From assembly GCA_946617675.1 (NCBI GenBank), contig CAMOKH010000115.1, positions 1 to 60,429 on the forward strand: 60,429 nucleotides of DNA. The letters run 5' to 3'. The notes beneath the pieces were generated by a model, which did not search any database, was not told where the DNA came from, and saw nothing but the letters and a program-made list of their open reading frames with translations. Origin of the DNA: an uncultured Prevotellaceae bacterium (GTDB lineage: Bacteria > Bacteroidota > Bacteroidia > Bacteroidales > Bacteroidaceae). Both the position numbers and the translations under genes were made by a program. Positions within the stretch are counted from its first letter, which is position 1; each line of letters starts with the position of its first letter. Positions 10,576 to 40,586 of the stretch are shown piece by piece.

Positions 10576-11472
10576 TTACCCTTGCCCTGTGTGAGAAGTT
10601 GGCAAACGAAACAGATTTCGGAGGCTGAATTTAGCCTTCGATTGGAGGATAGGAATCTCCTGCTGGTCGTCAATGAGTGAAGCCATGACGATGCAGATGT
10701 TATCATGGCCGCCGGCCTGCATGGCTAAACTGAATAGCTGGTCGCAGCATGCGGCAACATCATGATAGTTGGACTGTAGCACCTGCTCAATATCGCTGTC
10801 GGAGCAGTAGCCAGAGAGACCGTCGCTGCAGAGCATGAGCAGGTCGCCGGCACCTATGGGCTGGCTGACGACGTCAGGGACAGACATGGCATCGAAGTCG
10901 CCCAGCCCCCGTGTGATTAGATTGCTGTCTGGGTGGGTCAGAGCCTCTTGCTCGGTGATTTCACCCCTGTCGACGAGCTGTTGTACGTAGGAGTGGTCCT
11001 TGGTCAGCTGGCGTAGTCCGTTGGAGGGATTATAGAGGTAGCAGCGGCTGTCGCCGCACCATGCGACGTGGGCAGTGTCGGCGGTAATCCAGCAGATGAC
11101 GACTGTGGTGCCCATACCCGTGGTTGAGGGATCGTCCATCATGCGCAGTTTGATGGCCTTGTCGGCATCGCTGACGCACTTGCGCAGCAGCAGGGGAATG
11201 TCGTCAGAAGCTACACACTGGCTGACACGTTCGGCGGTAAGCGTCTCTTGGATGGCGGTGGTGGCCAGCGACGAGGCTACCTCGCCGGCGTTAGCACCGC
11301 CCATGCCGTCGGCAACGACGGCAACGGCTCCCAGTGGTCCTAACGGAATGTACGTCGGTGGCGTTGCTTGCAGCCACTCCTGACGGTTCATGTCGGGGCA
11401 GACGATGTAAGCATCCTCGTTGTTCTCACGTTCACGACCAATGTCGTTTACGGCTGATAATCTGATCTTCAT
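10576..11472 (-). CDS. PP2C-family Ser/Thr protein phosphatase (PppA-like)
   Basis: 298 residues. PP2C metal-binding motifs are intact: NNEDAY (Asp20), VVADGMGGANAGEVAS (Asp55-Gly56), GDSRCYLY, CSDGLSGY and GGHDNICIV. There is no signal peptide or membrane segment, so it acts in the cytosol. In many T6SS loci a PpkA kinase, a PppA phosphatase and an FHA protein form a threonine-phosphorylation switch controlling assembly. Here the kinase is two genes upstream and an FHA-like domain sits on the RING membrane protein. It is the last gene of the operon, 12 bp after the preceding gene and before a terminator hairpin. Confidence 0.92.
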   Translation of the reverse strand: MKIRLSAVNDIGRERENNEDAYIVCPDMNRQEWLQATPPTYIPLGPLGAVAVVADGMGGANAGEVASSLATTAIQETLTAERVSQCVASDDIPLLLRKCVSDADKAIKLRMMDDPSTTGMGTTVVICWITADTAHVAWCGDSRCYLYNPSNGLRQLTKDHSYVQQLVDRGEITEQEALTHPDSNLITRGLGDFDAMSVPDVVSQPIGAGDLLMLCSDGLSGYCSDSDIEQVLQSNYHDVAACCDQLFSLAMQAGGHDNICIVMASLIDDQQEIPILQSKAKFSLRNLFRLPTSHTGQG

Positions 11473-11484
11473 GGCGTATATAAT

Positions 11485-13281
11485 TCAGATTTCGAGTACA
11501 GGCTTTATTGGTGTCTCGTGTTTAGGCTTTGTCTTACCCTTGTCGTCAGATTTGGGTGTCGTTTTGGCAGGCCGCGGCTTTGACTTCTTCTCTACAGGTT
11601 TCTTATAGTTGGCACTGAAGCGGTGGAACAGTGGTGGGCAGCCTTGTTCTTCGACCTTGACTGTGATGGTGTTGTCCCCGTCGTAGAGATCGTTGACGAT
11701 GCCCCGATACTTTGTGTCGGATAATTGTTCTACATTCCATTGCAGACCGTCAGCCTGCAAGCTGACGTCGACGGGCGTCGGCTCTTCGCCAGGGACCGTG
11801 TCGGCAGTGACAGTAAAGAGAAACTGCAGCTGCCCGTCGGTGCTGACGGTGATGCTCTTCGGGTCTACGCTGATGGTATGATATTCTTCATGCAGTGCCT
11901 TGACCTTAACGTCGATGACAGGTGATAGCAGACCGTCGTAGCTGACAGAGAGTGGATAGCTGGTCTCGTTTTGACTGCCGTCGTCGTAGAACCTGTCGGT
12001 CAATGACTCGGGCATGTAGAGTAGCCCCTCATAGCGCAGTGTGCCGTCATCGCTGCGACTGACCGACCCCGGGTCGATATCGAGTCCGGCATCGCGTGGT
12101 ACGATGAGGCGGGCCTCGCCGACGGGGATACCTTCAGGCATGGCAACGGTGACGGTGGCGGACTGCGTACGGTGCCTGAAGGCAACTGGCTTGCCGTCAT
12201 TGATGCTGATATTGAAGCCGCCGTCACTGTAGGCCTTGATTGCGCCGTAGCGATTGTCCTGGCGTACGAAGGCGATGTCGGCGTAGCATGTGGTTACCTG
12301 GTCGAGCTGCGGTGGCAGTAGTTCTGTGGTGTCCCAGTAGAGTCCCATCTTACCGTCTTCGCGTAGCACGCGTAGAGGGGTGGCATAGCTGCGTTGGGCG
12401 TGCCCTGTCTTACTGTAGTGCTTCTGGCCGTCCTGTGTCTGTATTGACTTGGCGATGAGGCGGTTGTCGAACCAAATATATACATTGCCCGAAGTACCGC
12501 ATGAGGCCGTGAGAACCGTGGCGGTGTCGTTTTGGCGGACAAGGCACGTCGCCATGCTGCGGTCCAGGCGGGCTTGGTTGCGTAGGTCGGTCTCACTGCT
12601 GCGAGCGAGAACGGGGGTCAGCGTGCGGCTCTTTCCGCTGAAGCGGTAGAGTTTGCGTGCCGCCACAACGAAGCCTACACCCTCGTCATTGACCGAGGAT
12701 ATGAACTCCACTTCGTTGTCGCCGAAAGTCTTGCCGTTATACGACAGTGGCACCTCGTGGCCTTCTGCATCAAGCAATAGGTAATACGGGTCTTTCTGCT
12801 TCTCCAGGTTGCGGTAGGTGTAACAGGTGGCATAGCCATTGGAGTAGGGGTAGGCTACGACGTACTGTCCATTGAGCACATTTCCTTGGCGATTGACGTA
12901 GCGATAGTATTGCCCCTGTTTAACCAGTAGATATCCACTTGAGAAATAGGGGAAACCAAGAGCCGTAGTTAAGCCATCGGGAAGGGAGGTGAAGTGACCG
13001 TCAGTGTTGTAAAACCCGCTGATGCCGTTGGTGCCTTTGCGTATGGTTACCGCCATCTGTTCGCTGAAGGACGACAGCTGGTCGCTGGTGGCTGCCAACC
13101 GCTTTCCGTCCCACGACCAGAGTATGGTCATGTCGGCTGAGTCGGTAAGTAGGAAGTCGCCGCCGCTCATCTTGTGAATGGCCGAGTAGGCAGGCGGTAT
13201 GATCCAACGGGCCATCTGAGCCTTGGCGCCAGTGGCGGTCAGCGTGGCCGCCATGATAGTGATGATGGTTGCTCTTTTCAT
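11485..13281 (-). CDS. Exported WG-repeat-like protein with Ig-like region; TssR-like candidate
   Basis: 598 residues from the ATG at 13281, which opens MKRATIITIMAATLTATGAK and gives a clean signal peptide; a longer reading upstream would bury it. The mature N-terminal ~350 residues contain repeated Tyr/Gly-rich units of the WG type (YNTDGHFTSL, YYRYVNRQGNVL, YYLLLDAEGHEV), suggesting a β-propeller-like fold. An Ig-like β-rich region follows (~430-560), then a Lys/Pro-rich tail ending KPVLEI. It lies between the kinase and the PP2C gene. Subtype iii T6SS loci encode the large exported protein TssR, and this could be its counterpart, but I cannot confirm homology by eye. Confidence 0.6.
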   Translation of the reverse strand: MKRATIITIMAATLTATGAKAQMARWIIPPAYSAIHKMSGGDFLLTDSADMTILWSWDGKRLAATSDQLSSFSEQMAVTIRKGTNGISGFYNTDGHFTSLPDGLTTALGFPYFSSGYLLVKQGQYYRYVNRQGNVLNGQYVVAYPYSNGYATCYTYRNLEKQKDPYYLLLDAEGHEVPLSYNGKTFGDNEVEFISSVNDEGVGFVVAARKLYRFSGKSRTLTPVLARSSETDLRNQARLDRSMATCLVRQNDTATVLTASCGTSGNVYIWFDNRLIAKSIQTQDGQKHYSKTGHAQRSYATPLRVLREDGKMGLYWDTTELLPPQLDQVTTCYADIAFVRQDNRYGAIKAYSDGGFNISINDGKPVAFRHRTQSATVTVAMPEGIPVGEARLIVPRDAGLDIDPGSVSRSDDGTLRYEGLLYMPESLTDRFYDDGSQNETSYPLSVSYDGLLSPVIDVKVKALHEEYHTISVDPKSITVSTDGQLQFLFTVTADTVPGEEPTPVDVSLQADGLQWNVEQLSDTKYRGIVNDLYDGDNTITVKVEEQGCPPLFHRFSANYKKPVEKKSKPRPAKTTPKSDDKGKTKPKHETPIKPVLEI

Positions 13282-13294
13282 TTTCGTCGGTGTA

Positions 13295-14770
13295 TTATTT
13301 GAACGAGGCCAGACCACGTTCAATCTTGTTGAGTAGCTCACGGTCGCCGGCCATGGTGGCCCACTGGCGCGACTGTAGCAGGAACTGCTTGCCCTTTTCG
13401 TAGTTGGGCTTGTAGATGTTGTTTGTCATGACGTAGTAGCAGGCCAGCCGGTAGGCTGCCTGGGCATTGATGTCGGCATAGGTAGAGTCGTTGAGGCGGA
13501 CAATGCGTGTGAAGAGTGCTACGGCCTCGTTGCTGTGGCGGTCGGAGCGTGGCATGTACTGCTCGTCGATATCAATGCCGAGAAGACGCTTGCGGCGCAC
13601 AGAGACAGAGTCGGAGTACCAACCGTAGGTGAAGGCCATTTGGTAGATGGCGGGCACGTAGTTGGTGCTGCTTAAACTGTCCATCATCCTGATGCCGATC
13701 TTGAGTGAGTCGAGGTTGTTGCAGTCCATGCGGTGGAGTGCCGTCAGGTAGAGCTGTTCAACGGGAATCTTAGGCTCCTCCTCTGGGTCTGTCGATGTGC
13801 CCAACAGGAACGACAGCCCACCGACGAGCAGCATACCTAACAGAGCCAAAGTAATGTAGAATGCCTTGCGTGACTTGACCGGGTATTGTTTCTGACGGGC
13901 AGCGAGAGCCAGCTGTTGTGCTGTGGGACGGTCGTCTGGGTCTGGGGCAAGACAGGCGTGAATGAGACGCTGAATGTCAGCCGAGACGCCGGGTGCCGTT
14001 GGCATTGGCACGTGTTTCTCGGTCTGTGCGTAGCCGCCTTCCTCACCAAAAGGTACGCTGCCTGTCAGCAGTTCGTGAAGTGTAGCTCCAAAGGCCCAGA
14101 TATCACTCTGTGGCAACGGGTCGGCGTTTTCGTTGAATCGCTCCGGAGCCATGTAGGCCAGTGTTCCGTTGTTCTCGTCGTCGAAGTAATAGCCATGCTT
14201 GCCGTCTTTCTTTGAGCTGATGCCAAAGTCGGTGATGGCGTAGTTATAGATGTCGTCGATGAGCACGTTGCCGGGTTTGATGTCCTGGTGTACAATGGGT
14301 GGCGTCTGGGCGTGCAGATAGGCTAAGCCTGAGGCGACGTCCTCGATGTATTTCCAGATGTCGGCGTCTTTCTTCAGCTTACCGATGAGCTTCTCTGACG
14401 AACCTTGGCGGCAGTAGGGCAACACGAGGTAGGGCATCTCCTCGAAGATGCTGTAGTTGGTGGGGTGTAGCAGGTTTGTGTGGTTGCAGTTGAATACAAT
14501 CATGTACTCGTCGCGGAAGCGCTGCTCGCCTTCAATGTCGAGGGCGTTCTTCGGTCGGTAGATCTTGATGGCCACTACCAGCCCCAGCTCGTCAAGCTCC
14601 TGCGGTGTCATTGTGGGGACCTGGTCGAGTCGTGAGCGGTCCTTGACGGTCTTAGCGTCAAGGGCAAGCCAGACGTCGGCAGTGCCGCCGTCGGTGCTCA
14701 GCGGTCGGATCAGCTTGTAATGGTTGTCGAAGAGCTGGCCTGTTTTGGCAAATTTCTCAATGTCGAGCAT
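13295..14770 (-). CDS. Membrane Ser/Thr protein kinase (PpkA-like)
   Basis: 491 residues. The N-terminal Hanks-type kinase domain (~18-290) has the ATP-site lysine in VVAIKIY (Lys69), the catalytic loop VHQDIKPGNVL (Asp163), DFG at 181-183 and APERF at 209-213, so it should be active. A single membrane span at ~304-325 (FYITLALLGMLLVGGLSFLL) is followed by a ~165-residue outside region resembling TPR/Sel1 helices (YMPRSDRHSNEAVALFTRIV). Topology is kinase inside, sensor outside, as in T6SS PpkA. Likely substrates are proteins recognised by the FHA-like domain of the RING protein, with the PP2C reversing the reaction; this is inferred from context. Confidence 0.9.
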   Translation of the reverse strand: MLDIEKFAKTGQLFDNHYKLIRPLSTDGGTADVWLALDAKTVKDRSRLDQVPTMTPQELDELGLVVAIKIYRPKNALDIEGEQRFRDEYMIVFNCNHTNLLHPTNYSIFEEMPYLVLPYCRQGSSEKLIGKLKKDADIWKYIEDVASGLAYLHAQTPPIVHQDIKPGNVLIDDIYNYAITDFGISSKKDGKHGYYFDDENNGTLAYMAPERFNENADPLPQSDIWAFGATLHELLTGSVPFGEEGGYAQTEKHVPMPTAPGVSADIQRLIHACLAPDPDDRPTAQQLALAARQKQYPVKSRKAFYITLALLGMLLVGGLSFLLGTSTDPEEEPKIPVEQLYLTALHRMDCNNLDSLKIGIRMMDSLSSTNYVPAIYQMAFTYGWYSDSVSVRRKRLLGIDIDEQYMPRSDRHSNEAVALFTRIVRLNDSTYADINAQAAYRLACYYVMTNNIYKPNYEKGKQFLLQSRQWATMAGDRELLNKIERGLASFK

Positions 14771-14821: not shown

Positions 14822-15799
14822 CTACTTTAGCTTTATCTTAGTACCCTCCTTGAGGGTGGTGAAGATGTCGGTGTCGTTCATCTTGGCAAGGCTTGAGAGG
14901 CGGATGCCGAACTGCTGTGCAATGTCGTAGAGGGTGTCACCACTTTTGACGCGGTAGAAGTCCTGGGCTCCGGTGAACTTCTTTTTTTTCTTGTCAAGAT
15001 AGACGATGTCGCCCTCGCTGAGGCTGTTTTCGGAGGTGATTTCGTTGAAGTCGAGCAAATCCTGTTTAGGGATGTCATACTTCATGGCAATGGACGAGAG
15101 CGTCATGCCGGGGTAGAGCACGGTGCAGCGTACATCATTGATGTCGACCACCCAGCGGCGGACAGCACGGGTGACAGTCTGCTGCTCCTCAGACTCCTCG
15201 TCGTCGGCCTGCACACAGGCGGCATCGAACGTCGGCTTACTGCCCTGCCTGGCAGTGCGTGTGATGACAACGGTGCTACCGGCGCGTAGCTTCACTCCGC
15301 CGTTGATGGCATACAGCCTATATGAGTCGATAAAGCCAATGAGTGCTGAGGCGTAGTTCTTGGCTGTGGCATAGCCCGCCTTTTGCAGGCCGATAGCCCA
15401 ACCGCGATAATCGTAAACGCTTTTTGAGAAAAGACTGCGGTAACGTCCGTTGTTGCGCAGGAAGAGCGAGTGGTCGCGGAACGATTCGGCAGCATTACTG
15501 TAGACGCGGAAGCGGCTCTTCTGAGGCTCGTCGTCCCAGGCGTGGTAGACGGCACCGTTCCAGCCGCCCATAGCCTTGATGCCGAAGTGGTTGTTTGAGT
15601 TGCGCGTCAGTCCGCTGCGCCCGGCGCCGCTCTCAAGGATGCCTTGCGCAAGCGTGATGCTGGCCGGCACACCGTACTGCCGTTCTTGGTCGAGGGCTAT
15701 CATCTTGTATTTCTCGATGTAGGCCAGAATGTCGCCCGACGACTGGCTCCAGGCTATAGTCGGGACGATGATGGTCAATAGCAGCAGGAGGTACTTCAT
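14822..15799 (-). CDS. GH73 glucosaminidase with two LysM domains
   Basis: 325 residues. Signal peptide MKYLLLLLTIIVPTIAWS. The GH73/FlgJ-type catalytic domain (~25-170) has the acid ITLAQGILESGAGRSGL (Glu56) and the NNHFGIKAMGGWNG and YRGWAIGLQKAGYAT motifs. Two LysM repeats follow at ~217-262 and ~275-323 (YRVKSGDTLYDIAQQFGI). It should cut peptidoglycan in the periplasm. Inside a T6SS operon it most likely opens the producer's own wall for the trans-envelope complex, as shown for some other T6SS-linked hydrolases; an effector role is less likely given its own Sec signal. It sits 3 bp from tssF, confirming operon membership. Confidence 0.9.
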   Translation of the reverse strand: MKYLLLLLTIIVPTIAWSQSSGDILAYIEKYKMIALDQERQYGVPASITLAQGILESGAGRSGLTRNSNNHFGIKAMGGWNGAVYHAWDDEPQKSRFRVYSNAAESFRDHSLFLRNNGRYRSLFSKSVYDYRGWAIGLQKAGYATAKNYASALIGFIDSYRLYAINGGVKLRAGSTVVITRTARQGSKPTFDAACVQADDEESEEQQTVTRAVRRWVVDINDVRCTVLYPGMTLSSIAMKYDIPKQDLLDFNEITSENSLSEGDIVYLDKKKKKFTGAQDFYRVKSGDTLYDIAQQFGIRLSSLAKMNDTDIFTTLKEGTKIKLK

Positions 15800-15802
15800 G
15801 GT

Positions 15803-17593
15803 CTATTCGTCGAGATTCTTGAGCGTGACGATGATGGGCATTGAGATGCATGAGCGATTACTGATACGCTGCTCCATAAGTCGGTCGTAGGCTACAGAGC
15901 GAGCGTACTCGTAGTTTTTGCTGTCACGGAACTCTATGTCAATGTAGAGACCACGCCGGAGCGACGGCTCACCGCCTGAACCTTGAACCGACATCTTGAT
16001 GAAGATGCGGTGGAACTCGTCCTTTCCGAACTCGGCAAGCAGTTCCTTACGCAGGAAGGCGTCTATATCCATTCGTGTATATAGTCGGTCGTTTGTTAAG
16101 CTGTAGTAGCGAAGCTGCTCGTAACGCTCATCGGCTGTAGCCTTGTCGGCACCGCCCATGGCCTGAGCCACGACTGTGGCTTTCTGTGCCAATGCCGGGT
16201 GCTTACGGTTTTCCATGGCCTGACCTGTGTATGGGGCATTGGCTATCTTACCCATGGTAGTCAGGTAGCTGACCTTGACGGTAGAACTTGGCGTGCTTTG
16301 ATTCATGTTTTTCATGACGTAGGTGCCGGTGTCGAACTTGAATTTCTGGTTCTGCACGCCCACGCTCTTGCCCAGCCGGTTAATTGCCTCGCGCAGCTGG
16401 CGCAGCACCTCACCGTCCTTGATGCCGTTGTACTCGATGAAGGCATAATAATCGTCGATGAAGCGGTTGTAGAGTCGACGAACGTCGCGGTAGAGGTCTC
16501 CGTTGTCATAGCATTTGGCTTCGAAGTCGCGTATAATGATGTCGTCGCTTCTTTTGTTGAAGCCCTGCCTGTTTGAGGCCGTACTGGTCTCCAGAATTTG
16601 TAGGAAGTAGCTCTCGTCTTGTTTCTGCAACTTGGCTATGGGTTGGGTCTGGGTAAGCGTGACCGAGCAGACGTCGACATTGGTGACGGGTAGGACGTTG
16701 AGCGTCACGCGGCAGTCGTCAGGCACGGTGTATCCTTTCGGAAAGTCGAGGCGCAGCCAAATAGTGGCGGGTTGGAAGCGGTCGAGCACTTCACTTTCAA
16801 GCCATTGTTGTAACATCCGTGGATAGGCCCTGGGCTTGAAGGTATCACGATCCTGACGCTCGTCGGTAATGTAGAGGAGTGCAGCATCCGTCATGTTCAG
16901 CAGGTTCTCTTTCCAATTCTGTACAAACGAGAAGAACTCGCCTGAGGCTTGCTGTGCATCGAAGGGCTCAACCATCTCAATATTCTCCATCTCGTACATG
17001 GTAGCAAAGTCGATTTCCTCGTTGCCGACGGCGGCATAGATGTGTTCCGGCGTAATACCGCCCGTGCCTGTAATGAGTATGGAGAGCCCGAGCATGGAAT
17101 TGATTTCTGTGTCGCTCTTGATGCCCACCCACAACTGGTTGGCTCCTTCCATGTTGATGCTGATGGATGTATCGCCGTCGCGCAGCATGTGGTAGTTCAG
17201 CAGATAGAGTCCCGAGTGGGGTATCAGTGAAGTGCTGAACACGGGAATGTAGTTGAGTGGCTGTTTCAAGCCCTCAATCTTATAGGCAAACTGGGCGTCG
17301 CCAGTAATACTGACCAGGCTGCCTGCATCGTTGACTTTCAACTCTGGGCGGAGCAGACAGATGGCGGGCATGGCGTCAACCTTCTGGCGGGGAATGAAGT
17401 CAGTGCAGAACCGCTCCACCAGGCGCTGACTGGCGTCGTCAACATAGTCGAGTACCTTCTGAATCTCGCCGACCATAGCCACGAGCATCATCTTGGCAAT
17501 GGGATCCATTTCGTGGAAGTTGATGGGTTCTGCTGACAATTGCTGCAGCACCTCTACGGCCTCTTTGATTCTTTTTTCTAATTCTATGTCCAT
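15803..17593 (-). CDS. tssF: T6SS baseplate protein TssF
   Basis: 596 residues, the usual TssF size, soluble. Diagnostic features are the N-terminal helical region with DYVDDASQRLVERFCTDFIP, the MPAICLLRPEL segment, the central SFVQNWKENLL, and the C-terminal RRGLYIDIEFRD with RISNRSCISMPIIV. TssF with TssG, TssE and TssK forms the baseplate wedge docked at the inner membrane. The genes tssG, tssK, tssE and tssF are contiguous here with gaps of 10-14 bp or overlaps, and the family assignment leans on this context as well as on sequence. Confidence 0.82.
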   Translation of the reverse strand: MDIELEKRIKEAVEVLQQLSAEPINFHEMDPIAKMMLVAMVGEIQKVLDYVDDASQRLVERFCTDFIPRQKVDAMPAICLLRPELKVNDAGSLVSITGDAQFAYKIEGLKQPLNYIPVFSTSLIPHSGLYLLNYHMLRDGDTSISINMEGANQLWVGIKSDTEINSMLGLSILITGTGGITPEHIYAAVGNEEIDFATMYEMENIEMVEPFDAQQASGEFFSFVQNWKENLLNMTDAALLYITDERQDRDTFKPRAYPRMLQQWLESEVLDRFQPATIWLRLDFPKGYTVPDDCRVTLNVLPVTNVDVCSVTLTQTQPIAKLQKQDESYFLQILETSTASNRQGFNKRSDDIIIRDFEAKCYDNGDLYRDVRRLYNRFIDDYYAFIEYNGIKDGEVLRQLREAINRLGKSVGVQNQKFKFDTGTYVMKNMNQSTPSSTVKVSYLTTMGKIANAPYTGQAMENRKHPALAQKATVVAQAMGGADKATADERYEQLRYYSLTNDRLYTRMDIDAFLRKELLAEFGKDEFHRIFIKMSVQGSGGEPSLRRGLYIDIEFRDSKNYEYARSVAYDRLMEQRISNRSCISMPIIVTLKNLDE

Positions 17594-17606: not shown

Positions 17607-18101
17607 CTATCTGTATCGTTTTACGGTAGGTTCAACGAGGAACACCACATTCTTGCGGTAAGGCTGAAGTGTGCCAAGACCGTCGTCAAGTTGTCCCTCC
17701 ACGACGACGTTCACCTCGTATTTTGATGCCGTCTTCTTACGTTGCAGCGGCCTGTTCCCGGCAGTGTTCAGGACGATGGAGACAGCGACGTTCTTCAGCA
17801 TCGGTTCGTAGGTGGCCAGACTTGTACGGATGCTGTCTTCACACTCCTTCTTGGTGACCTCGTTCTGTAGCCCTTTGGCCAGGTGCCCCAATTGGCTGTT
17901 GTTGAATTCGCGGTAGTGAACGTTTGAGTATTCGTGGTTCCAGTACTCAAAGCCGAAGTCGGGGTCGGCCGTCATGCTGCCACGCGGGGTGAATACAATC
18001 AGCTCCACCAGGTTGTCGAGCATGGTGATGCGGTCGTTGACATCGCGGAGTATGGATGCCCCTGAGTGCAGGAAGACAAGTGGTGTGCTGATGAAACTCA
18101 T
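17607..18101 (-). CDS. tssE: T6SS baseplate protein TssE (gp25-like)
   Basis: 164 residues with the GPW/gp25 lysozyme-like fold pattern: DVNDRITMLDNLVELIVFTP, then PRGSMTADPDFGFEYWNHEY, then the helical segment EDSIRTSLATYEPML and the β-strand VAVSIVLN. TssE is the phage gp25 homologue that links baseplate wedges to the sheath. Its ATG overlaps the stop of tssK by 4 nt (ATGA, 18098-18101), showing translational coupling. Confidence 0.86.
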   Translation of the reverse strand: MSFISTPLVFLHSGASILRDVNDRITMLDNLVELIVFTPRGSMTADPDFGFEYWNHEYSNVHYREFNNSQLGHLAKGLQNEVTKKECEDSIRTSLATYEPMLKNVAVSIVLNTAGNRPLQRKKTASKYEVNVVVEGQLDDGLGTLQPYRKNVVFLVEPTVKRYR

Positions 18102-19078: not shown

Positions 19079-19963
19079 TTATAGGTTCGTATTATAGTTC
19101 AGGTAATTGTAAAAGATGTCATCGCCGAGGCGAAGCGGGGGCTCGTCGTGGCTGATGATAAACTTCAGTTCCTCCTCAACGGAGAGGAAGTAATCGGTCA
19201 GGAACAGTCGCAGGTCGTCTACCTCGCGGATGAACTGCAGGAATTCAGGACCGCACTCATCGTCACTCCAATAGTGGATGGTGTAGGTCGTGACGGTATC
19301 GCAGTAGGAGTTGCCGACATAGCCTCTGCCCAGTTCCATATCGAGTCGTTCGTCGTAGCGCGGACTGTCGTCGGTCAGTGTTATCGACTCACGACCGACG
19401 CTGATTCTCAGTCCCTCCTCCATGAACACCTTGCGCAGGAGCAGCGTCAGCAGTGTCCTATTGCCGCGTATGGTCTTGCAGTGGGGCAGCAGAGGCACGA
19501 TCTGGCGGATAAACCTGTTGGCTCGTTGCTCATCGGTCAGTTCATCGCCCAGTATCTGTTGCATGATGATGTCCGTTCCAGCGTATTGCTCTATGCGCTG
19601 CCTGACTTCAGAGCGCAGCCAGATGAGCAGCGTGTCGATGGGGGCAAAGAATCGGTAGGCGTCCTCTATCTCTTGCTGCTGCTGTTCAAGCTGTTCCTCG
19701 AAGCGCTCCTTCTCCTCGTGCTTTGGCAGGTTGTCAAAGCGGTCAATGGGGTGGAACATATACTCAGGCAGCGCATTGTAGAGACTGTTGCGACCCACGG
19801 TCAGCAGAAAGCTGTTGTCACTGTGCTCGGTAGTCTCGATGACATCCTGGTAGGTGTTGCGCTTGTGCAGGCCTTTCAGGCGGACCTTGCACGTGCCCAA
19901 GGGATAGTATGCCAGAAGCACTTCGGCGTTGATGTCGCCGGGTAGTAGTTGCGGTGGAATCAT
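19079..19963 (-). CDS. tssG: T6SS baseplate protein TssG
   Basis: 294 residues, soluble. TssG-like features are residues ~130-200 (QILGDELTDEQRANRFIRQI followed by PLLPHCKTIRGNRTLLTLLL), matching the region where TssG lists its membrane-distal helices, and the C-terminal DIFYNYLNYNTNL, comparable to the LG-x-N-T-x-L ending of TssG. A Gln/Glu-rich helix lies at ~80-100. It is the first of four contiguous baseplate genes and follows the E1-like gene by 10 bp. Confidence 0.75.
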   Translation of the reverse strand: MIPPQLLPGDINAEVLLAYYPLGTCKVRLKGLHKRNTYQDVIETTEHSDNSFLLTVGRNSLYNALPEYMFHPIDRFDNLPKHEEKERFEEQLEQQQQEIEDAYRFFAPIDTLLIWLRSEVRQRIEQYAGTDIIMQQILGDELTDEQRANRFIRQIVPLLPHCKTIRGNRTLLTLLLRKVFMEEGLRISVGRESITLTDDSPRYDERLDMELGRGYVGNSYCDTVTTYTIHYWSDDECGPEFLQFIREVDDLRLFLTDYFLSVEEELKFIISHDEPPLRLGDDIFYNYLNYNTNL

Positions 19964-29109: not shown

Positions 29110-29140
29110 TTTTCTTACAGCTTATAGCCATGTATCCATT

Positions 29141-33598: not shown

Positions 33599-35212
33599 TC
33601 AGCTCCACTCGTTGTTGAACTCGGCAATGTCGTTGGAGCCAACCTGTATGATTTCGGCCGCGATGGTCACCTCGGTGTACATCAGCTTGCTGTCCTTGTC
33701 GTTGAAATAGTCCTGCAGTTTGACGCAGTAGGCGTTCTCGAAGGATACGGTCTTGTAGTTGCGCTTGTTGTTGCTCGAATAGACGACGAACTTGAAGAAT
33801 CCCGACTCTACCTCGGTCTTGCTGAACATCCACTTGTAGAAGAACACGTTGTCGTCGCTCAGCGATGGTGTCTTGAAGGTGATGTTGCCGCCCCGGGGCC
33901 TTGACGAGGGCTTGCCCGTGCTGTCCTGCGTTTGATGAAACTCGTATGTACACTCCACGACGGCGTACTTCTGTCCGCCCACCTTCACGTAGCCGTAGAA
34001 CGGGAAGTTATCGTCGCTTTCGGCAGGGCCGCTGCTCAGCGCGTTCATTATTGGTGCCTGTATCTTGTCGGCTGAGAGGGCCGACAGGTCGGGAACTTTG
34101 GGCTTCAGTCCCGACGTGATGTCGTTGCTCCAGTTGCCCAACGAGGCAACAGCCTCCGAAGGGTTGTCGGCCAGATTCTTCAGCGTCTCCTTGCCCTTGG
34201 CCTTAAGGTTGCCAAGTTTCTCTTTGGCGGCTTCTTTCAGGTCGTTGAGCACCTCCTTGGCTTTCTCCTTGCCTTTTTCCAGTATCTCTTTGCCCTTTTC
34301 CTTTACAGCCTCCTTGATTTTCTCCTTGCCCTCGTCGATGAGTTTCTTTCCCGTCTCCTTCAGTTTTTCGAGGGTTTTCTCCTTGAGCTGGTTCAGCTTG
34401 TCCTTAGCCTCGTCCTTCAGCTCATTCAGCTTCTCCTTAGCCTGGTTCTTCAGGTCGTCAAGTTTCTCCTTGGCCTGTTCTTTCAGGTTGTTAATCTCCT
34501 CTTTCGCCTCATTCTTCAGTTCGTTGAGGTCGTCCTTAACGTTGTCAATAGCCTGTTTGCCCTCCTCTATGAGGTTGTCTATCTCTTGCTTAGCCTCATC
34601 GATGGCGTCGTCGACCATTTCCTTCGCCTGGTCGTAGACTTCCTTGCCTTGTTGCTCCAGCTCGTTGGCTATCTTCTCTGCCTCTTGTCTGGCGTCGTTG
34701 CCTAACTGCTCGGCCTGGCCCTTGAACTGGTCGTAAGCAGCATCGACGTCAGGCATGGCGTCACCGATGATGTCGTCGAGTTGCTTCATGCCGTTGTCCA
34801 CAGCCTCCTTCAGCATCTGGTCGGCTCCTGCTGCAGCATTCTCGGCCATTTTCTCAAGACCGGAGACGGTATCGCCGATTTTCGACTTTGCCCCGTCAAT
34901 GGCACTTCCGGCCTGTTTGCCGGCTTCCTTCGCCATGTCAGTGGCAGCCTTTTCTATCTTGCTGCCCTCCTTCTTGGCTTCTTTGACGCCGGCTTCAACT
35001 TTCTTTTCCAGCTCGTTTGTCGCTTTTGAAACTTGGCTGCCTACCTTCTTCGTCGCATCGGCGACGGCACTGTCTAATTTCGTCTTTGTCTCGGCCACGG
35101 CACTGTCAATCTTGGCAGCTGCACCCTTTGCTTGTTTCGTGCCTTCGGCTGCCACTTTGCCTGCTGCGCTGGTAGCGCTGTCGACAATCGACTCGAACTC
35201 TGGAAATTTCAT
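33599..35212 (-). CDS. tssD: TssD/Hcp domain fused to a long N-terminal coiled coil
   Basis: 537 residues. Residues ~405-537 are a complete TssD/Hcp domain (FPFYGYVKVGGQKYAVVECT, RGGNITFKTPS, FFYKWMFSKTE), homologous to the separate TssD upstream (RGGKIHFKVKS, LLEWMCD). The first ~370 residues are highly charged and helical, with Lys/Glu-rich repeats such as AKEKLNELKDEAKDKLNQLK, preceded by an Ala-rich part. Extended Hcp proteins usually deliver a C-terminal toxin; here the extension is N-terminal and shows no catalytic signature. It could be a tube-end adaptor, a cargo carrier or an effector that works by membrane interaction. A hairpin between tssD and this gene suggests it is expressed at a lower level than tssD. 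Confidence 0.85.
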   Translation of the reverse strand: MKFPEFESIVDSATSAAGKVAAEGTKQAKGAAAKIDSAVAETKTKLDSAVADATKKVGSQVSKATNELEKKVEAGVKEAKKEGSKIEKAATDMAKEAGKQAGSAIDGAKSKIGDTVSGLEKMAENAAAGADQMLKEAVDNGMKQLDDIIGDAMPDVDAAYDQFKGQAEQLGNDARQEAEKIANELEQQGKEVYDQAKEMVDDAIDEAKQEIDNLIEEGKQAIDNVKDDLNELKNEAKEEINNLKEQAKEKLDDLKNQAKEKLNELKDEAKDKLNQLKEKTLEKLKETGKKLIDEGKEKIKEAVKEKGKEILEKGKEKAKEVLNDLKEAAKEKLGNLKAKGKETLKNLADNPSEAVASLGNWSNDITSGLKPKVPDLSALSADKIQAPIMNALSSGPAESDDNFPFYGYVKVGGQKYAVVECTYEFHQTQDSTGKPSSRPRGGNITFKTPSLSDDNVFFYKWMFSKTEVESGFFKFVVYSSNNKRNYKTVSFENAYCVKLQDYFNDKDSKLMYTEVTIAAEIIQVGSNDIAEFNNEWS

Positions 35213-35296: not shown

Positions 35297-35704
35297 TTAG
35301 TTGTCAATCGTCCAGCGGTTGTTGTGGACGGCGTTGCCGATGGCAATCTCTTTGGCCGAGATGGTGAACTCCTCGAACTGCTGGACCTCGTTCTTGTTGT
35401 CATAGGTCTCAGCATACTCCACCATGTAGCCTTCCTTGAAGTCGAGGTGCTTCATTTCGCCACCCTGACGGTTGGGCCAGGAGATGGTGCCGCTCTTCGA
35501 CATGTAGGTGTCGCACATCCACTCGAGCAAGTCGGTGTTACCGTCGTCGTTCGACTTCACCTTGAAGTGAATCTTGCCGCCACGGGTGGTTCCTGTGGGC
35601 TGACCTTCGACGTCGGTCTGCTGGTTCAGTTCGTAACGAACGTACATAATCTCGCGCTCAGCGATGCCGTCGGCATTGAGCGTAACAACTCTTTGTGCTG
35701 CCAT
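35297..35704 (-). CDS. tssD: T6SS tube protein TssD (Hcp)
   Basis: 135 residues from the ATG at 35704 (MAAQRVVTLNADGIAEREIM); an upstream extension of the frame runs into the tssC intergenic region and is not used. Bacteroidetes-type Hcp pattern: IMYVRYELNQQTDVEGQPTG, TTRGGKIHFKVKS, LLEWMCDTYM, GYMVEYAETYD and FTISAKEIAIGN. It stacks as hexameric rings inside the TssBC sheath and is secreted. Its leader (CCAAAACAATTATGGC) nearly equals that of tssB, and a terminator-like hairpin follows, both fitting high expression of the most abundant subunit. Confidence 0.93.
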   Translation of the reverse strand: MAAQRVVTLNADGIAEREIMYVRYELNQQTDVEGQPTGTTRGGKIHFKVKSNDDGNTDLLEWMCDTYMSKSGTISWPNRQGGEMKHLDFKEGYMVEYAETYDNKNEVQQFEEFTISAKEIAIGNAVHNNRWTIDN

Positions 35705-35756
35705 AATTGTTTTGGTTTTTGGGTTAATAAATAATGTTATGAATGAAAGAAGCTTT

Positions 35757-37139
35757 TTACTGAACGTTCTGATCCCATTCAACACCAGCCGTACCATTGT
35801 GTCCTGTCAGTTCGATGAAGAAGTTCTTTGCGGCAAAGAAGGGCTTCAGCTCGACCTCGATCTTGATGTCCTTCGTCTTGGGGTCCTGGTTGATGCTCTT
35901 AAGGTTGTAGTTCTCGATGAGCTTGCCTGGGCCTTTGTAGTCACTCAGGAAGTCGTGGACGGCCTGCTGTAACTCGGCCTTGACGGCGGAGTTCCAGTTG
36001 ATGAAGGCCTCGTCGTTGAAGAAGTTCTGGAACACCTTGCCTATCCAGTCGAACGTGCGCACGATGGGGTACTCCTGCAGTCCGAGCGTGGCGCCGTTGT
36101 AGAGCGAGCGGTTCGAGAAAGCCATGGTGCGGCCCTCCTCCTCGACCATGGGAATGACGCCCTGGTCGATGAGTGCAGCTATCTCTGACTTGCGCAAGTC
36201 GAGGCGCGAGCCTTTGACGTTGCTCAGCGTACCGTACTTCTTGCCGGCACAGCCTTGAGCGATGACGGTCTCCTCGGTGTTGGTCATGCGGCCGGCCAGT
36301 GCTGCTGAGCCGGGAATGTAGAGGTCGTCGTCCTCGTCGGCGAGTTCTGACTTCTTGCGGCCCAGCAGGTAGTTGCAGGTCATGACGACGTTGGCCATCT
36401 TGGCCTCTTGACCCATCATGTTGGCGTCGTCGAGCTCGTCCTTCAGCATCTCGAAGCTCATGGAGTCCTTGAAGTCGGTAAGCATGATGACCTTGTTACG
36501 GTATGCAGTATCGGCCCACATACGGATAGTGTTGGCGTCGCCTAAGTAGCCGGGCACGATAAGCAAAGAGTAGTTGTTCTTCAGGCTCAGACGGTCGTAG
36601 TAGCGTTCCAGCTCGTCGCGGATGGCCAGAGTGTCTTCTGAGTCGTGGTACTCCAACTCTTCCTTGTTGACGTTCATCAGCGTCAGACAGTCAATCTTGC
36701 CCTGTCCGGCGTTGGCGAAGAATGAGTCGAGCGAGCGATAGGTTACCTCCAGTTTCTTAATCTCGTCGTGAATGCTGAAGAGGTTGTTCTTCAGGTTGGT
36801 CTCAGCCTTGTCGCGCTTGGCGGAACACTGCTCGATGATGCTCATGGGGTCAGTGCCTCCCTCGCTGAGTATGCTGACCCACAGTTCCAACTCATTCTTC
36901 AGCTTCTTGCGGGCCTCCTTGTAGGCGGAGTCCGAGAGGAAGATGTTCTTAACGGCCTTGCGGCGCGGGTCCATATTCTCTACGCCTTTGATGAGGCCTT
37001 TCACCATCTGGAAACCACCAAACTTGTTCAGACCGTCAAGGCTCTGCTGCAACAGCGCTGCGGGGTTTTCCACCTTTTCTCTCTCGCGCAGTTCTACGGG
37101 CTGGCCTTCTTCTTGTTTTTTCAGTTCTTCTGCTGCCAT
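35757..37139 (-). CDS. tssC: T6SS sheath large subunit TssC
   Basis: 460 residues. The TssC (VipB-type) region is recognisable: MDPRRKAVKNIFLSDSAYKE, LVIVPGYLGD-like LLIVPGYLGDANTIRMW, the ARMTNTEETVIAQGCAGKKY stretch, FSNRSLYNGATLGLQEYPIV and the C-terminal AKNFFIELTGHNGTAGVEWD. With TssB it forms the contractile sheath around TssD, later disassembled by ClpV. The start codon lies 15 bp from a nine-unit heptamer array that fills the gap to tssB. Confidence 0.92.
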   Translation of the reverse strand: MAAEELKKQEEGQPVELREREKVENPAALLQQSLDGLNKFGGFQMVKGLIKGVENMDPRRKAVKNIFLSDSAYKEARKKLKNELELWVSILSEGGTDPMSIIEQCSAKRDKAETNLKNNLFSIHDEIKKLEVTYRSLDSFFANAGQGKIDCLTLMNVNKEELEYHDSEDTLAIRDELERYYDRLSLKNNYSLLIVPGYLGDANTIRMWADTAYRNKVIMLTDFKDSMSFEMLKDELDDANMMGQEAKMANVVMTCNYLLGRKKSELADEDDDLYIPGSAALAGRMTNTEETVIAQGCAGKKYGTLSNVKGSRLDLRKSEIAALIDQGVIPMVEEEGRTMAFSNRSLYNGATLGLQEYPIVRTFDWIGKVFQNFFNDEAFINWNSAVKAELQQAVHDFLSDYKGPGKLIENYNLKSINQDPKTKDIKIEVELKPFFAAKNFFIELTGHNGTAGVEWDQNVQ

Positions 37140-37154: not shown

Positions 37155-37217
37155 CAATTCTCAATTCTCAATTCTCAATTCTCAATTGTCAATTCTCAAT
37201 TGTCAATTCTCAATTCT
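37155..37217 (-). repeat. Nine tandem heptamers between tssB and tssC
   Basis: Nine units of CAATTCT (two read CAATTGT) run from 37155 to 37217, AGAATTG on the coding strand. The last base overlaps the tssB stop codon. The array ends 15 bp before the tssC ATG. Such arrays are prone to slipped-strand changes in unit number. Confidence 0.92.
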
Positions 37218-37672
37218 TACTCCGCCTCTTCCAGTTCTGCAAGCAGGGCCTTCAGGGCGTCCTTCAGATTACCGCGTGCGGCCTCGTCTTTCAGGGCGTT
37301 GCGCAGACTCTTGTTCTTCTCCAACTGGCGGATGACCGAGTTGTAGGCGTCAATCTTGTCTTTAGCGGCACCTAACAGTGCGCTCTGGTCGATGAGCTGT
37401 TCGTCCTCGAAGTCTTTAATTGACTTGAAGTCGAAGTCCTCGTAGACAGCACCTCCCTCCTCATTCTCTAAGGCGATGCCCTTCTTGCTGGGCTGGAAAT
37501 GCTCGAACACATCCTTCATACTCTTTGCCTTGAAACCCTCGCGGTCTTCGTCGCTCTGGGGGGCTTCGTCGGTAAACTGGTCGGCATACAAGGCACGGTT
37601 CTGCGGGAACTCAATGATGCCGTCTTGTGCTTCTACATCGAGCACTTTACTGATAACGGTTTTTCTTGCCAT
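37217..37672 (-). CDS. tssB: T6SS sheath small subunit TssB
   Basis: 151 residues. Begins MARKTVISKVLDVEAQDGII, followed by SMKDVFEHFQPSKKGIALEN, DFDFKSIKDFEDEQLIDQSA and a C-terminal helical region (LRNALKDEAARGNLKDALKA). Family length and composition fit the Bacteroidetes TssB (VipA-type) partner of TssC. It lies between clpV and tssC on the same strand. The leader shares CCAAAACRATTATGGC with tssD. Confidence 0.85.
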   Translation of the reverse strand: MARKTVISKVLDVEAQDGIIEFPQNRALYADQFTDEAPQSDEDREGFKAKSMKDVFEHFQPSKKGIALENEEGGAVYEDFDFKSIKDFEDEQLIDQSALLGAAKDKIDAYNSVIRQLEKNKSLRNALKDEAARGNLKDALKALLAELEEAE

Positions 37673-37709
37673 AATCGTTTTGGTTTTGTTTATTGATAAA
37701 TATTAACTG

Positions 37710-39992
37710 TTAGTTCTCGTCGGGAGTGTCAATGTCCCAGAGTATCTGCTTCTGAGCCTCGTCGTAGCGCATGGTGACGGTGTCGCCGGGAACCACGTCG
37801 CCGGCGATGATGAGTTTCGACAGCGGACGGCGTATCTCCTTGCGGATGATGCCCAGAATAGGTCGTGCGCCGTAGTGGGCGTTGAAGCCTACGCTGGTGA
37901 CGTACTTGCGTGCTGACTCGTCGATTTGAAGTTTGATATTCTGCTCGCTGAGTGTCTTCAGCAGGTTCTTGATATGGATGTCGAAGATACGGTTGATCAT
38001 CTCGGACGTGATAGGCGAGAAAGGCACAATCTCTGTCAGGCGGGCCAGGAACTCGGGGCGGAACTGGCCTTGCATCACCTCCAGCAGCTGGTCGTGTGAA
38101 GGCACGCGGCCTTCGCCGAACGACTTGAAGATGTACTCGGAACCGATGTTCGACGTGAAGATGATGAGCGCGTTCGAGAAGTCGCCCACACGGCCCAGTC
38201 GGTCGTGCAGTTTACCCTCGTCGAGAATCTGCAGGAATAAGTCGAACACCGACTTGTGGGCTTTCTCAATCTCGTCGAACAGTACGACGGAGTAGGGGTG
38301 CTGGCGTATCTGGTTTACCAGCAGGCCGCCCTCCTCGTAACCGACGTAGCCCGGAGGTGCACCGTAGAGCAGGGCCACGGAGTGCTCTTCCTTATACTCC
38401 GACATGTCGAAACGCAGCATGGCAGTCTCGTCGTCGAAGAGGAAATTAGCCAGCGACTTGGCCAATTCGGTCTTACCAGTACCCGTCGGGCCGAGGAAGA
38501 AGAACGAACCCATGGGCTGCCCCTTCTTGTTTAGGCCAGAGCGGCTTTCGAAGATGGCATCGAGGATACTCTTGATGGCGTGGTTCTGGCCTACAACACG
38601 GCGGTGCAAAATCTCCTCGGCATTGCCCAGCTTCTCGCGCTCCTCGCTCTGGATGTTACCCATTGGTATGCCTGTCATCTTGGCCACGACGTCGCGGACG
38701 GCCTCCTTCTCAAGGGTGATATCCGTTTGAGTTGTTTCGGGTGTGGGAGCCTCGGCGTTGAGGGCTGCCAGTTCAGCGGCAATCTTCTGTGAGGCCATGG
38801 CGCGGTCGAGTAGGTCGAGGGCGGACGACGGCAGACGGCGGTCTGGCATGTAGCGCTTGGCCAACCTGACAATCTCGGCGGGTACATCGTCGCCGATGGT
38901 CATCTTGTGAAACGTCTCGTAGCCTTGGCGCTTGGCTTGGATAATGGCAACGGCCTGTTCCTCGTTTGGCTCCTCAACGGTAATTTTCTCAAAGAATGAC
39001 GTCAACTCCTTGTCCTTCTCAATATCCTTCGTGTAGCCGTCGACAGTCGAGGTGATGACTACCTGGAGCTGGTTTTTCGAAAGCAGACGCTTCAGTCCGG
39101 GCAGGATGCCGTTGAGCATGGACTGCTTTTCCTCAACGCGATGGAAATTCTCGATGACCAGCAGCGGCTGGGTCAGCTGTGCCAGATTCTCGGTTACTTG
39201 TTTGAAGCGGTCTTCAATCTCGCCTTTGTAGCTGACGCCCTGGCTAAGGGCTATAAGGTCGAGCTCGTATGGCTGTAGGGCTTCGAGCGAAGCGGGCACC
39301 TTCTTGTCGCGAACGCGCTGGAGTATACTGTAGATGAGGCTGCTCTTACCTACGCCAGTCTCACCTACAATGAGCAGGTTGGCACGGTCCTTACGGGCCA
39401 GCACCTCCGTAATGGAGAGTACTTCGCCGTCGAAGCCGATGATGTCGGCCTCGGGTAGTTCGTGCAACATGTCGGTGCAGTAGTCGTCAGCGGGCGCACC
39501 GCTGCCCGACACCTTATTATATATAGAGGGGGCTGAGGCTGGCTTCGCTGGTGCACCCGACTGTATTTGACTGAGAATCTTGTCGGCCTGCAGCGGCAGG
39601 GTCTTTAATTGTTCGTAGCTGAAGCCAATGCCCGGTGTGACGAGAGAGGCCAGCAGGCAGGGAGCCGTAATCTCTGTCAGGCCGCATTTCTCGCTGATGT
39701 CCTGTGCCTCCTTGACCACCTGCTCGGCGTCATGCGACAGTTCTATACCTTTCATCGGGTAGGGCGACTTGTCGCACTGTTTCATGCGCATATCGGTCCA
39801 GTCAACCAGGTAGTAGTAATCCTCGTCGAGTGTGTCCTCAATGTAGTTCACCAGCCCTGCACTCTTGTGCAGCAGGGCGCGCAGAAGGTGTGCAGGCTCA
39901 ATCTTGGGCGACTTGTTGTCGTTGGCAAATGACTGTGCGATGTGTAGCACGTCGAATGGTAGGTTTTCTAATAGTTTCGCGTATTTGTCCAT
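37710..39992 (-). CDS. clpV: T6SS AAA+ sheath-recycling ATPase ClpV (TssH)
   Basis: 760 residues. A Clp_N-type domain (~1-150), NBD1 with Walker A GETGVGKSSLI near residue 210, NBD2 with Walker A GPTGTGKTELAK near 500, Walker B VVLFDEIEKAH and a C-terminal ClpB D2-small domain (FNAHYGARPILGIIRKEIRR). NBD1's Walker B reads LLVIENFHRV, without the usual acidic pair (DE), so hydrolysis in this ring may be weakened. ClpV pulls apart contracted TssBC sheaths. ClpB/ClpC chaperones differ by having a long middle domain and an intact NBD1. It is the second gene of the operon. Confidence 0.93.
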   Translation of the reverse strand: MDKYAKLLENLPFDVLHIAQSFANDNKSPKIEPAHLLRALLHKSAGLVNYIEDTLDEDYYYLVDWTDMRMKQCDKSPYPMKGIELSHDAEQVVKEAQDISEKCGLTEITAPCLLASLVTPGIGFSYEQLKTLPLQADKILSQIQSGAPAKPASAPSIYNKVSGSGAPADDYCTDMLHELPEADIIGFDGEVLSITEVLARKDRANLLIVGETGVGKSSLIYSILQRVRDKKVPASLEALQPYELDLIALSQGVSYKGEIEDRFKQVTENLAQLTQPLLVIENFHRVEEKQSMLNGILPGLKRLLSKNQLQVVITSTVDGYTKDIEKDKELTSFFEKITVEEPNEEQAVAIIQAKRQGYETFHKMTIGDDVPAEIVRLAKRYMPDRRLPSSALDLLDRAMASQKIAAELAALNAEAPTPETTQTDITLEKEAVRDVVAKMTGIPMGNIQSEEREKLGNAEEILHRRVVGQNHAIKSILDAIFESRSGLNKKGQPMGSFFFLGPTGTGKTELAKSLANFLFDDETAMLRFDMSEYKEEHSVALLYGAPPGYVGYEEGGLLVNQIRQHPYSVVLFDEIEKAHKSVFDLFLQILDEGKLHDRLGRVGDFSNALIIFTSNIGSEYIFKSFGEGRVPSHDQLLEVMQGQFRPEFLARLTEIVPFSPITSEMINRIFDIHIKNLLKTLSEQNIKLQIDESARKYVTSVGFNAHYGARPILGIIRKEIRRPLSKLIIAGDVVPGDTVTMRYDEAQKQILWDIDTPDEN

Positions 39993-40028
39993 AATCCTAT
40001 ATAGTTATTGGTTGTTAAGGTACTTATT

Positions 40029-40586
40029 TTATAAAGCCATCAGGCTCTGCTTGGGCACATAGGCGATTGCCACGGCAGCCACGCCGTCAATCTGAACCAC
40101 TACGTGCTTATTGTTCTTAATACGCTTGATAACGCCCTCTACGCCGGCAAAGTAGCCTTCGGTGACACGGACGCGGCATCCGGGCTTGGCTAAGAAACTG
40201 CTATATTTGAGGAAATGAATCAGCTTATGGTCGGCACTGGCCACCCTGATGAAATTCTCCATCTGGCAGTCGGGCACACGCATGATTTCCTTTCCTTGCC
40301 CGTCGCTGGCGGTTTTCATGATGTAGCGCATTGGTTCCAGACTGCGGCGAGTCATCTTCAGCATCGTGATTGTCTCCTGTGTGGAGTGAACGAATATCAG
40401 GTTGTGAATGGCTGGCACCAGTTCGTATTTGCGATGGTCGCCTGTGCCCGTCACCTCATACTGCATCGGTAAGAAGTTTTCAATGCCCAGTTCGTCAAGC
40501 TGGTCCTTGATCTTCAATTCCCGTTTGTAGGTTACCCTCATAGGGAACCATTCTCTCGGTCCGTTAGCTAAGTTGTTTAGTTTCAA
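40029..40586 (-). CDS. UpxY/RfaH-like NusG paralogue, probable T6SS-operon antiterminator
   Basis: 185 residues. An N-terminal NGN domain (REWFPMRVTYKRELKIKDQL, FLPMQYEV, LVPAIHNLIFVHST) and a C-terminal KOW domain (PGCRVRVTEGYFAGVEGVIK, HVVVQIDGVAAVAIAYVPK). This is the architecture of UpxY regulators that open Bacteroides capsule operons, and of RfaH and LoaP, which let RNA polymerase pass terminators in very long operons. As first gene of a 30-kb operon that contains an internal terminator-like hairpin, an antitermination role is likely. No ATG is in frame before the essential Trp; TTG at 40586 is the only good start, which would keep its level low. It is not the housekeeping NusG. Confidence 0.85.
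   Translation of the reverse strand: MKLNNLANGPREWFPMRVTYKRELKIKDQLDELGIENFLPMQYEVTGTGDHRKYELVPAIHNLIFVHSTQETITMLKMTRRSLEPMRYIMKTASDGQGKEIMRVPDCQMENFIRVASADHKLIHFLKYSSFLAKPGCRVRVTEGYFAGVEGVIKRIKNNKHVVVQIDGVAAVAIAYVPKQSLMAL

Follow-up and report, generated by a model that had tools for sequence, protein, structure and literature searches.

Operon structure and gene content

The window analyzed here is a 60,429-nucleotide stretch of DNA from an uncultured Prevotellaceae bacterium, in whose genome it is contig C115; with a completeness of 56%, absences from this genome weigh little. Positions 10576–40586 hold one tight operon of 24 genes, all on the minus strand and separated by gaps of −47 to +118 bp, which encodes a type VI secretion system (T6SS) together with a ubiquitin-like protein (Ubl), an E1-like enzyme, an E2, a RING protein, and a JAMM protease. 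The initial annotation, made from the sequence alone, had described this combination with tiny gaps and 23 genes; that observation is confirmed here, with 24 genes. A NusG-like gene heads the operon and a PP2C phosphatase gene ends it, and the cassette of Ubl-pathway genes sits between the spike genes and the baseplate genes of the T6SS. In 5′ to 3′ order, the genes are as follows.

40029..40586, minus strand: NusG/KOW-type antiterminator-like protein (PF02357, 2e-9)
37710..39992, minus strand: TssH/ClpV-type AAA+ ATPase (AAA_2 and ClpB_D2-small; TIGR03345 at 1.4e-135, below cut-off)
37217..37672, minus strand: TssB, sheath (homolog of the gene preceding TssC in the canonical locus of genome G016, 1.7e-20; PF05591 at 0.047 only)
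35757..37139, minus strand: TssC, sheath (PF17541, 435 bits)
35297..35797, minus strand: TssD/Hcp (PF17642, 2e-31)
33599..35212, minus strand: second, long TssD (PF17642, 1.5e-29, at residues 408–536; amphipathic N-terminal extension of ~400 residues)
31441..33549, minus strand: TssI/VgrG (PF04717, PF05954)
29250..31418, minus strand: PAAR-like protein (DUF4280) with a long C-terminal part, probable cargo (PF14107, 3.7e-11; the slot varies among relatives)
28847..29131, minus strand: 94-aa product, possibly immunity (open frame; homolog at the same place in locus L077)
28466..28792, minus strand: Ubl, 108 aa, C-terminal Gly (beta-grasp in its AlphaFold2 model)
27767..28426, minus strand: E2, HPN motif at 116–118, Cys130, C-terminal Ile tail (UQ_con, 1.1e-6, over cut-off; UBE2K-type chains match the profile)
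26696..27751, minus strand: putative envelope protein u351, signal peptide by eye (place kept in loci arranged as in the window)
25356..26699, minus strand: putative envelope protein u447, signal peptide by eye, one predicted transmembrane (TM) helix, C-terminal Ile tail
23556..25349, minus strand: membrane JAMM protease with E287, H358, H360, S368, and D371 (by motif and hydropathy; Prok-JAB at 0.0064, below cut-off)
21178..23580, minus strand: membrane RING protein (predicted periplasmic vWA domain, TM helix, RING-H2 at 421–461, TM bundle, FHA domain)
19974..21173, minus strand: E1-like ThiF enzyme with a C-terminal extension (ThiF, 7e-47)
19079..19963, minus strand: TssG, baseplate (matches the gene adjoining TssN in the canonical G016 locus, 4.2e-7)
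18098..19069, minus strand: TssK, baseplate, with a Pro-rich tail and a final Ile (PF05936 at 5e-4 and TIGR03353 at 1.6e-8, both below cut-off)
17607..18101, minus strand: TssE, baseplate (PF04965 at 1.2e-4, below cut-off)
15803..17593, minus strand: TssF, baseplate, by position (no library match; homologs in r-type loci, defined below, and in genome G293)
14822..15799, minus strand: LysM glucosaminidase (PF01832, PF01476)
13295..14770, minus strand: Ser/Thr kinase, one predicted TM helix at 306–324 (PF00069, 9e-39)
11485..13341, minus strand: WG-repeat protein (PF14903, 9.6e-6)
10576..11472, minus strand: PP2C phosphatase (PF00481, 1.2e-15)

Library matches are firm for the ClpV-type AAA protein, TssC, both TssD proteins, VgrG, the PAAR-like protein, the E2, the E1, the kinase, the PP2C, and the glucosaminidase. 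Those for TssK, TssE, TssB, the JAB domain, and the RING domain fall below curated cut-offs and are backed by homologs in relatives, with invariant residues further backing the RING and JAMM assignments. Sheath, tube, spike, baseplate, and ClpV genes are found together, TssF being assigned by position only.

The second TssD (33599–35212) is an Hcp/TssD with a coiled amphipathic N-terminal extension, possibly a cargo-carrying Hcp. Beyond the operon, 195 bp downstream, positions 4849–10380 encode a DUF4011 helicase with an MTES_1575 nuclease domain, the PADLOC candidate PDC-S37.

Linkage of the cassette to T6SS genes

A genome scan by E2 homology found 187 stretches, of which the best 80 were kept, representing 79 loci; the linkage fractions cover these loci, some of which are near copies of each other (e.g., L031 and L054). 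T6SS genes lie at 77 of the 79, so the result that the initial annotation had named as refuting, a lack of consistent linkage, was not obtained. A sheath, baseplate, or ClpV gene is present at 74 loci, and Ubl, E2, RING, and E1 genes together at 73. Where there was room to see, E1 is directly followed by TssG at 64 of 71 loci, and likewise in r-type genomes. Two layouts recur: the w-type, arranged as in the window, and the r-type, with the order E1-TssG-K-E-F-Ubl-E2-u386-u293-RING and no JAMM gene.

Three genome samples place these counts in context. In a set of 60 relatives that includes the own genome, five genomes have the E2 (the own one plus four); the own genome and three of those four carry a divergent TssC on the E2 contig, and three genomes whose TssC scores as canonical lack an E2. 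An even sample of 393 genomes from the order contains TssC in 18, five of which (G000, G423, G081, G213, and G277) have the E2, in each case on the TssC contig. None of the eleven order-sample genomes with canonical-scoring TssC (626–770 bits) has an E2, and the remaining TssC genomes are G293, without an E2, and G308, whose TssC is a fragment at a contig end. One genome of this sample, G051, has the E2 without TssC. Across 395 phylum genomes, TssC was found in 25 and the E2 in three (own genome, G491, and G585), the latter two lacking TssC.

The linkage of T6SS and cassette is not a local accident. Carriers are rumen and gut Bacteroidota, and the named isolates among them (Xylanibacter muris PMUR, Palleniella intestinalis PINT, Barnesiella sp. 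An22, and Parabacteroides distasonis An863) make the system directly testable.

Conserved residues and predicted folds of the conjugation proteins

No Pfam family matches the window Ubl. Its AlphaFold2 model (predicted local-distance difference test score, pLDDT, 89) has a ubiquitin-type beta-grasp fold, and fold matches include archaeal ubiquitin 6fnn, ubiquitin variants, and EccD Ubl domains. The final residue is exactly Gly in 77 of 80 Ubl copies; the remaining three (L027, L090, and L100) extend 2–4 residues beyond the Gly, each at a locus encoding a JAMM protein. Two columns alone are invariant among 41 diverse Ubls, the C-terminal Gly being one of them, and nine r-type Ubls end exactly in Gly.

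Cys130, at the catalytic position of the E2, is kept in 80 of 80 copies, as is the HPN motif, whose conservation is partly circular because both E2 search patterns include WHPNI. All eight zinc ligands of the RING (C-C-C-H-H-C-C-C) are invariant in 76 of 76 copies and the JAMM motif E...HxHPx6SxxD in 71 of 71 aligned copies. Nine motif residues of the E1, together with Cys126, 168, 171, 187, and 261, are invariant in 74 of 74, and the best PDB kin of the window E1 include UBA7, MoeB, and UBA6. By these conserved catalytic residues, the Ubl pathway looks intact.

The AlphaFold2 model of the RING protein comprises an N-terminal domain, a TM helix, the RING, a TM bundle, and a C-terminal domain. 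Foldseek matched its ends to vWA proteins and to FHA domains (6hc1, target TM-score 0.80), and the RING protein of the relative L149 matches Pfam VWA and FHA over cut-off. For the membrane part, no TssN- or EccD-like match appeared among the 50 Foldseek matches listed, a negative of little weight.

Phylogenetic position of the T6SS and its membrane complex

PMC10781749 describes T6SSiii as the only T6SS type in the phylum, always accompanied by at least part of TssNQOPR, with a baseplate docked through TssN, a protein with a built-in Ubl-like domain. We compared this arrangement with cassette-bearing (Ubl-type) systems using TssC, which was complete enough in part of the 79 loci. The midpoint-rooted tree has 67 rows, 34 of them Ubl-type. 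Thirty canonical rows form one supported group (96/84), and most Ubl-type rows lie outside it on a branch supported at 85/65, or at 96/87 without L087. The long branches of L087 and G277 make deep placement unsure, and that of L148 is very long. TssC of G081, a cassette carrier, branches alone between the canonical and Ubl-type sides, so Ubl-type TssC is not shown as one clade. One row wrongly labeled canonical, L147, duplicates the G293 gene already present as L115, which inflates the count of group changes in the tree. By this TssC tree, the window T6SS is placed outside the canonical T6SSiii clade.

Membrane-complex genes were compared between the two sets of genomes. TssN exceeds its cut-off in 0 of 8 Ubl-type vs 9 of 13 canonical genomes, and TssR_VWA in 1 of 8 (G277, where the match is partial and lies on another contig) vs 6 of 13. 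A TssN match in G020 stayed below the cut-off (19.6 of 30.3 bits) and lies on another contig. In the Ubl-type loci searched, where divergent homologs are possible, phmmer found no match to any of the five TssNQOPR proteins of G016. Likewise, no TssJLM family is among the listed Pfam matches of the 24 window genes (for ClpV, the best 25 listed).

Co-divergence and C-terminal tails

Among w-type loci, the pairwise distances of E1 and RING follow those of TssC, TssK, and TssG (rho 0.73–0.87), the highest values being TssC-E1 and TssC-RING at 0.87; E2 and Ubl track the same proteins less strongly (rho 0.60–0.81). For these core correlations, 0 of 200 permutations were as high. The cassette correlations are comparably close to that of TssC vs TssK themselves (rho 0.77, n = 13). 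VgrG does not track the cassette proteins within the w-type (rho −0.14 to 0.11). Co-divergence with the core in the absence of co-divergence with VgrG indicates that the w-type cassette was inherited with the machine, despite adjoining an exchangeable effector slot. The w-type cassette thus groups with the core rather than with the cargo, a pattern that points to no particular substrate.

A C-terminal Ile recurs in several proteins of these loci. It ends 27 of 28 complete TssK copies (w-type 21/22, r-type 6/6) and 54 of 56 w-type E2 copies, and is also found in w-type u447 (33/53), r-type u293 (6/6), and w-type TssG (34/48), against a background of 45 among 526 other long frames in the 79 loci. 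Neither G293 nor the canonical G016 has a TssK with a final Ile. From this distribution we infer that the Ile tail may be a common docking tail that gathers the baseplate, a membrane protein, and, in the w-type, the E2. The window Ubl is strongly acidic (net charge −19, pI 4.1), and the net charges of 71 copies have a median of −19 and span −23 to +5. The tails of the E2 are mildly basic (median +2), and this combination would fit the Ubl as tail receptor. The TssK tails listed keep no lysine throughout, a survey that included no dedicated acceptor-lysine search.

Related cassettes and side loci

Of 120 genomes from one other family, 10 carry E2 relatives. The fetched surroundings of all ten were read; the G848 contig is only 3.5 kb long. 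Neighbors include genes for eCIS_core (extracellular contractile injection system, eCIS) or PAAR proteins in four genomes (G491, G585, G933, and G905) and TssK, TssB, and TssC in one (G936), and neither eCIS/PAAR nor T6SS genes were seen in five. In G491, the one genome covered by a check of eCIS structural genes, six eCIS structural Pfam families lie within ~30 kb of the cassette. A related cassette is thus found, though not always, next to another kind of contractile injection system as well.

The gene order at the G491 (L149, L156) and G585 (L150, L158) loci is nSTAND-E1-Ubl-E2-JAB-RING, beside PAAR and eCIS_core cargo genes. In G920, among the five genomes with neither kind of neighbor, one frame is similar to TssP of G016 (1e-18), a similarity that PKD domains alone may explain. 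The G051 loci (L021, L022, and L160) contain a cassette without T6SS genes, along with Ubl paralogs, one frame apparently holding two copies of the Ubl. A second frame with a JAB domain is present as well, and another frame has, by eye, a subtilisin-like motif. The G293 loci L114 and L115 contain frames resembling stand-alone FHA proteins, several kinase matches, and a PP2C.

Just upstream of the Ubl gene at L060, L063, L066, and L075 are second Ubl-domain frames, truncated or fused to other sequence and without a final Gly, which are probably scars of effector–immunity exchange. We considered them as Ubl-tagged effectors and rejected that reading; recombination scars are likelier because the frames lack the final Gly and occupy an exchangeable slot. 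At L082, a long frame appears by eye to be the Ubl frame extended upstream.

Proposed mechanism and alternatives

We propose, giving the reading about an even chance, that the operon encodes a noncanonical T6SS equipped with a Ubl, E1, E2, membrane RING protein, and JAMM protease, and that the Ubl becomes covalently attached to a T6SS component at the membrane–baseplate junction as a reversible assembly switch. Judging from the conserved motifs, conjugation would begin with the E1 adenylating the Ubl at its C-terminal Gly, and the Ubl would then be handed to Cys130 of the E2. The role of a membrane-bound E3 would fall to the RING-vWA-FHA protein; it carries an FHA fold and the operon encodes a Ser/Thr kinase and a PP2C, which may gate the E3 through the FHA domain. 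The most likely substrate would be TssK or another baseplate protein, or else one of the putative envelope proteins, u447 or u351. Where present, the JAMM protease would remove the tag and trim tailed Ubls. Because TssN, which docks the canonical baseplate and has a Ubl-like domain built in, was not found here, conjugated Ubl may, more speculatively, take over the TssN docking step.

Co-divergence with TssC, TssK, and TssG and, in the w-type, not with VgrG, together with the TssK tail, favors assembly control over effector loading. The initial annotation had proposed that the pathway modifies a T6SS component or effector at the inner membrane and controls assembly, loading, or sheath turnover; the consistent linkage of a full pathway to a T6SS supports this in part.

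Several observations weigh against the assembly switch, or narrow it, and G293 speaks most strongly against a strict role. The G293 T6SS is nested among Ubl-type TssC rows and has neither the Ubl cassette nor a TssN over cut-off. This placement suggests a loss of the cassette, and it implies that some machines of this kind do without the cassette, which then need not be a substitute for TssN. Conversely, cassette relatives without T6SS genes in view occur in G051, at L064, and in nine of the ten genomes of the other family; the two exceptions to linkage among the 79 loci are L064, from a 2.0-Mb genome without TssC, and L100, the G051 cassette, also without TssC. These cases correct the initial annotation: G293 belongs to the clade without carrying a cassette, and the cassettes of G051 and L064 stand without T6SS genes in view. 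The complete Ubl-E1-E2-RING-JAMM set described initially likewise loses its JAMM member in the r-type layout. The JAMM profile has no match over the catalytic part in 9 of 9 r-type genomes, and two matches under 25 bits were seen, in r-type G940 (profile 135–279) and in G293 (97–216); reversal is accordingly not general. The final Ile is absent from the E2 of the r-type (0/6) and of the divergent L081–L101 (0/16), and from both TssK and E2 of the cassette carrier G081. With both layouts pooled, VgrG does correlate with the cassette (0.57–0.65, 0 of 200 permutations as high), below TssC, TssK, and TssG (0.81–0.94). Finally, a common species history would equally give co-divergence.

A bolder version of the proposal, which we hold as doubtful, is that these systems form a TssN-free class of Bacteroidota T6SS in which Ubl conjugated by a membrane RING/FHA ligase would replace the Ubl-like hub fused into TssN and fix the baseplate to the membrane. 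Phosphorylation would be the trigger, the Ile tails of TssK, E2, and u447 would be docking tails held in common, and cassette relatives would run eCIS, so that Ubl control of contractile injection would be general. Strict replacement of TssN by Ubl was considered and is weakened by G293, which has no Ubl and no TssN over cut-off.

Marking of effectors, Hcp, or the VgrG/PAAR spike by Ubl for cargo loading is rather unlikely. The w-type Ubl gene directly follows the variable VgrG-PAAR-effector slot, in the four genomes named above a related cassette has eCIS_core cargo and PAAR genes as neighbors, and the pooled VgrG correlation points the same way. Against these, the r-type Ubl and E2 genes come after TssF instead, and we lowered this explanation because w-type VgrG shows no co-divergence with the E1, the E2, the RING protein, or the Ubl.

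Still less probable is that Ubl tags the contracted TssB/TssC sheath for ClpV or a protease and so controls turnover. The operon encodes ClpV, and the strongest w-type distance correlations are those of TssC with E1 and RING; but T6SSs that have no Ubl also recycle their sheaths with ClpV, ClpV is retained in G293 despite the missing cassette, and the best 25 of 47 families matching the window ClpV include no Ubl-binding Pfam family. We give the same low standing to a Ubl that works as a non-covalent scaffold, in the manner of YukD/EccD or of the TssN Ubl-like domain.

An anti-phage Ubl system of the Bil, Bub, or CBASS (cyclic-oligonucleotide-based antiphage signaling system) type that shares the transcript by accident is highly improbable: the E1 weakly matches PADLOC E1-E2 models (best 8.7e-15) and the candidate helicase PDC-S37 lies downstream, but no PADLOC model matches the Ubl, E2, JAB, or RING protein at 0.01, nearly all of the 79 loci carry T6SS genes, and the cassette co-diverges with TssC, TssK, and TssG.

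If the assembly switch is real, bacterial Ubl conjugation gains a role outside antiviral defense and the T6SS gains a covalent layer of control, a new way to run a protein-injecting weapon.

Comparison with known systems

No T6SS with a Ubl conjugation pathway is among the literature matches listed, a search whose scope left out bioRxiv and most subscription papers. In the portions of text available, Iyer 2006 (PMC1779556) does not contain the term "type VI," nor PMC4714493 the term "ubiquitin." The novelty appears to lie in the place of the cassette within a T6SS.

The window shares with canonical T6SSiii the components TssB, C, D, E, F (by position), G, H, I, and K and a PAAR-like protein. 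Both have a vWA domain in an envelope protein, TssR in T6SSiii and the RING protein in the window. Unlike T6SSiii, the window has a TssC outside the 30-row canonical clade and a Ubl cascade, and TssN over cut-off is missing from the eight Ubl-type genomes; we do not file it as a canonical member. The finding questions the view, stated in PMC10781749, that one T6SS type and one membrane complex serve all Bacteroidota.

Bacterial operons with YukD-like Ubl, E1, E2, RING, and JAB proteins were reportedly catalogued by Burroughs, Iyer, and Aravind in 2011, who very likely described this enzyme class. Those operons have the same enzyme set, including an E2 with HPN and Cys, and the Ubl of the relative L149 matches YukD at 1.3e-5, just below cut-off. 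Unlike them, the window cassette is stably placed inside a T6SS operon. As for YukD in its type VII setting, neither WXG100 nor an FtsK-type ATPase is among the listed Pfam matches of the 24 operon genes.

The Bil and Bub antiviral systems and Cap2 of CBASS follow an E1-E2-Ubl-JAB logic that the window shares. The window E1 matches BubCD chains at 8.5e-9, and the bacterial Ubl–deubiquitinase complex 8tyx is among the fold matches of the window Ubl. In contrast to these systems, the window RING protein carries vWA, TM, and FHA parts, the cassette is linked to a T6SS, and the PADLOC match is confined to the E1 and weak.

Threonine phosphorylation controls the T6SS through PpkA-Fha-PppA. The window operon likewise encodes a transmembrane Ser/Thr kinase, a PP2C, and an FHA domain; unlike in that system, the FHA domain of the window sits on the RING protein.

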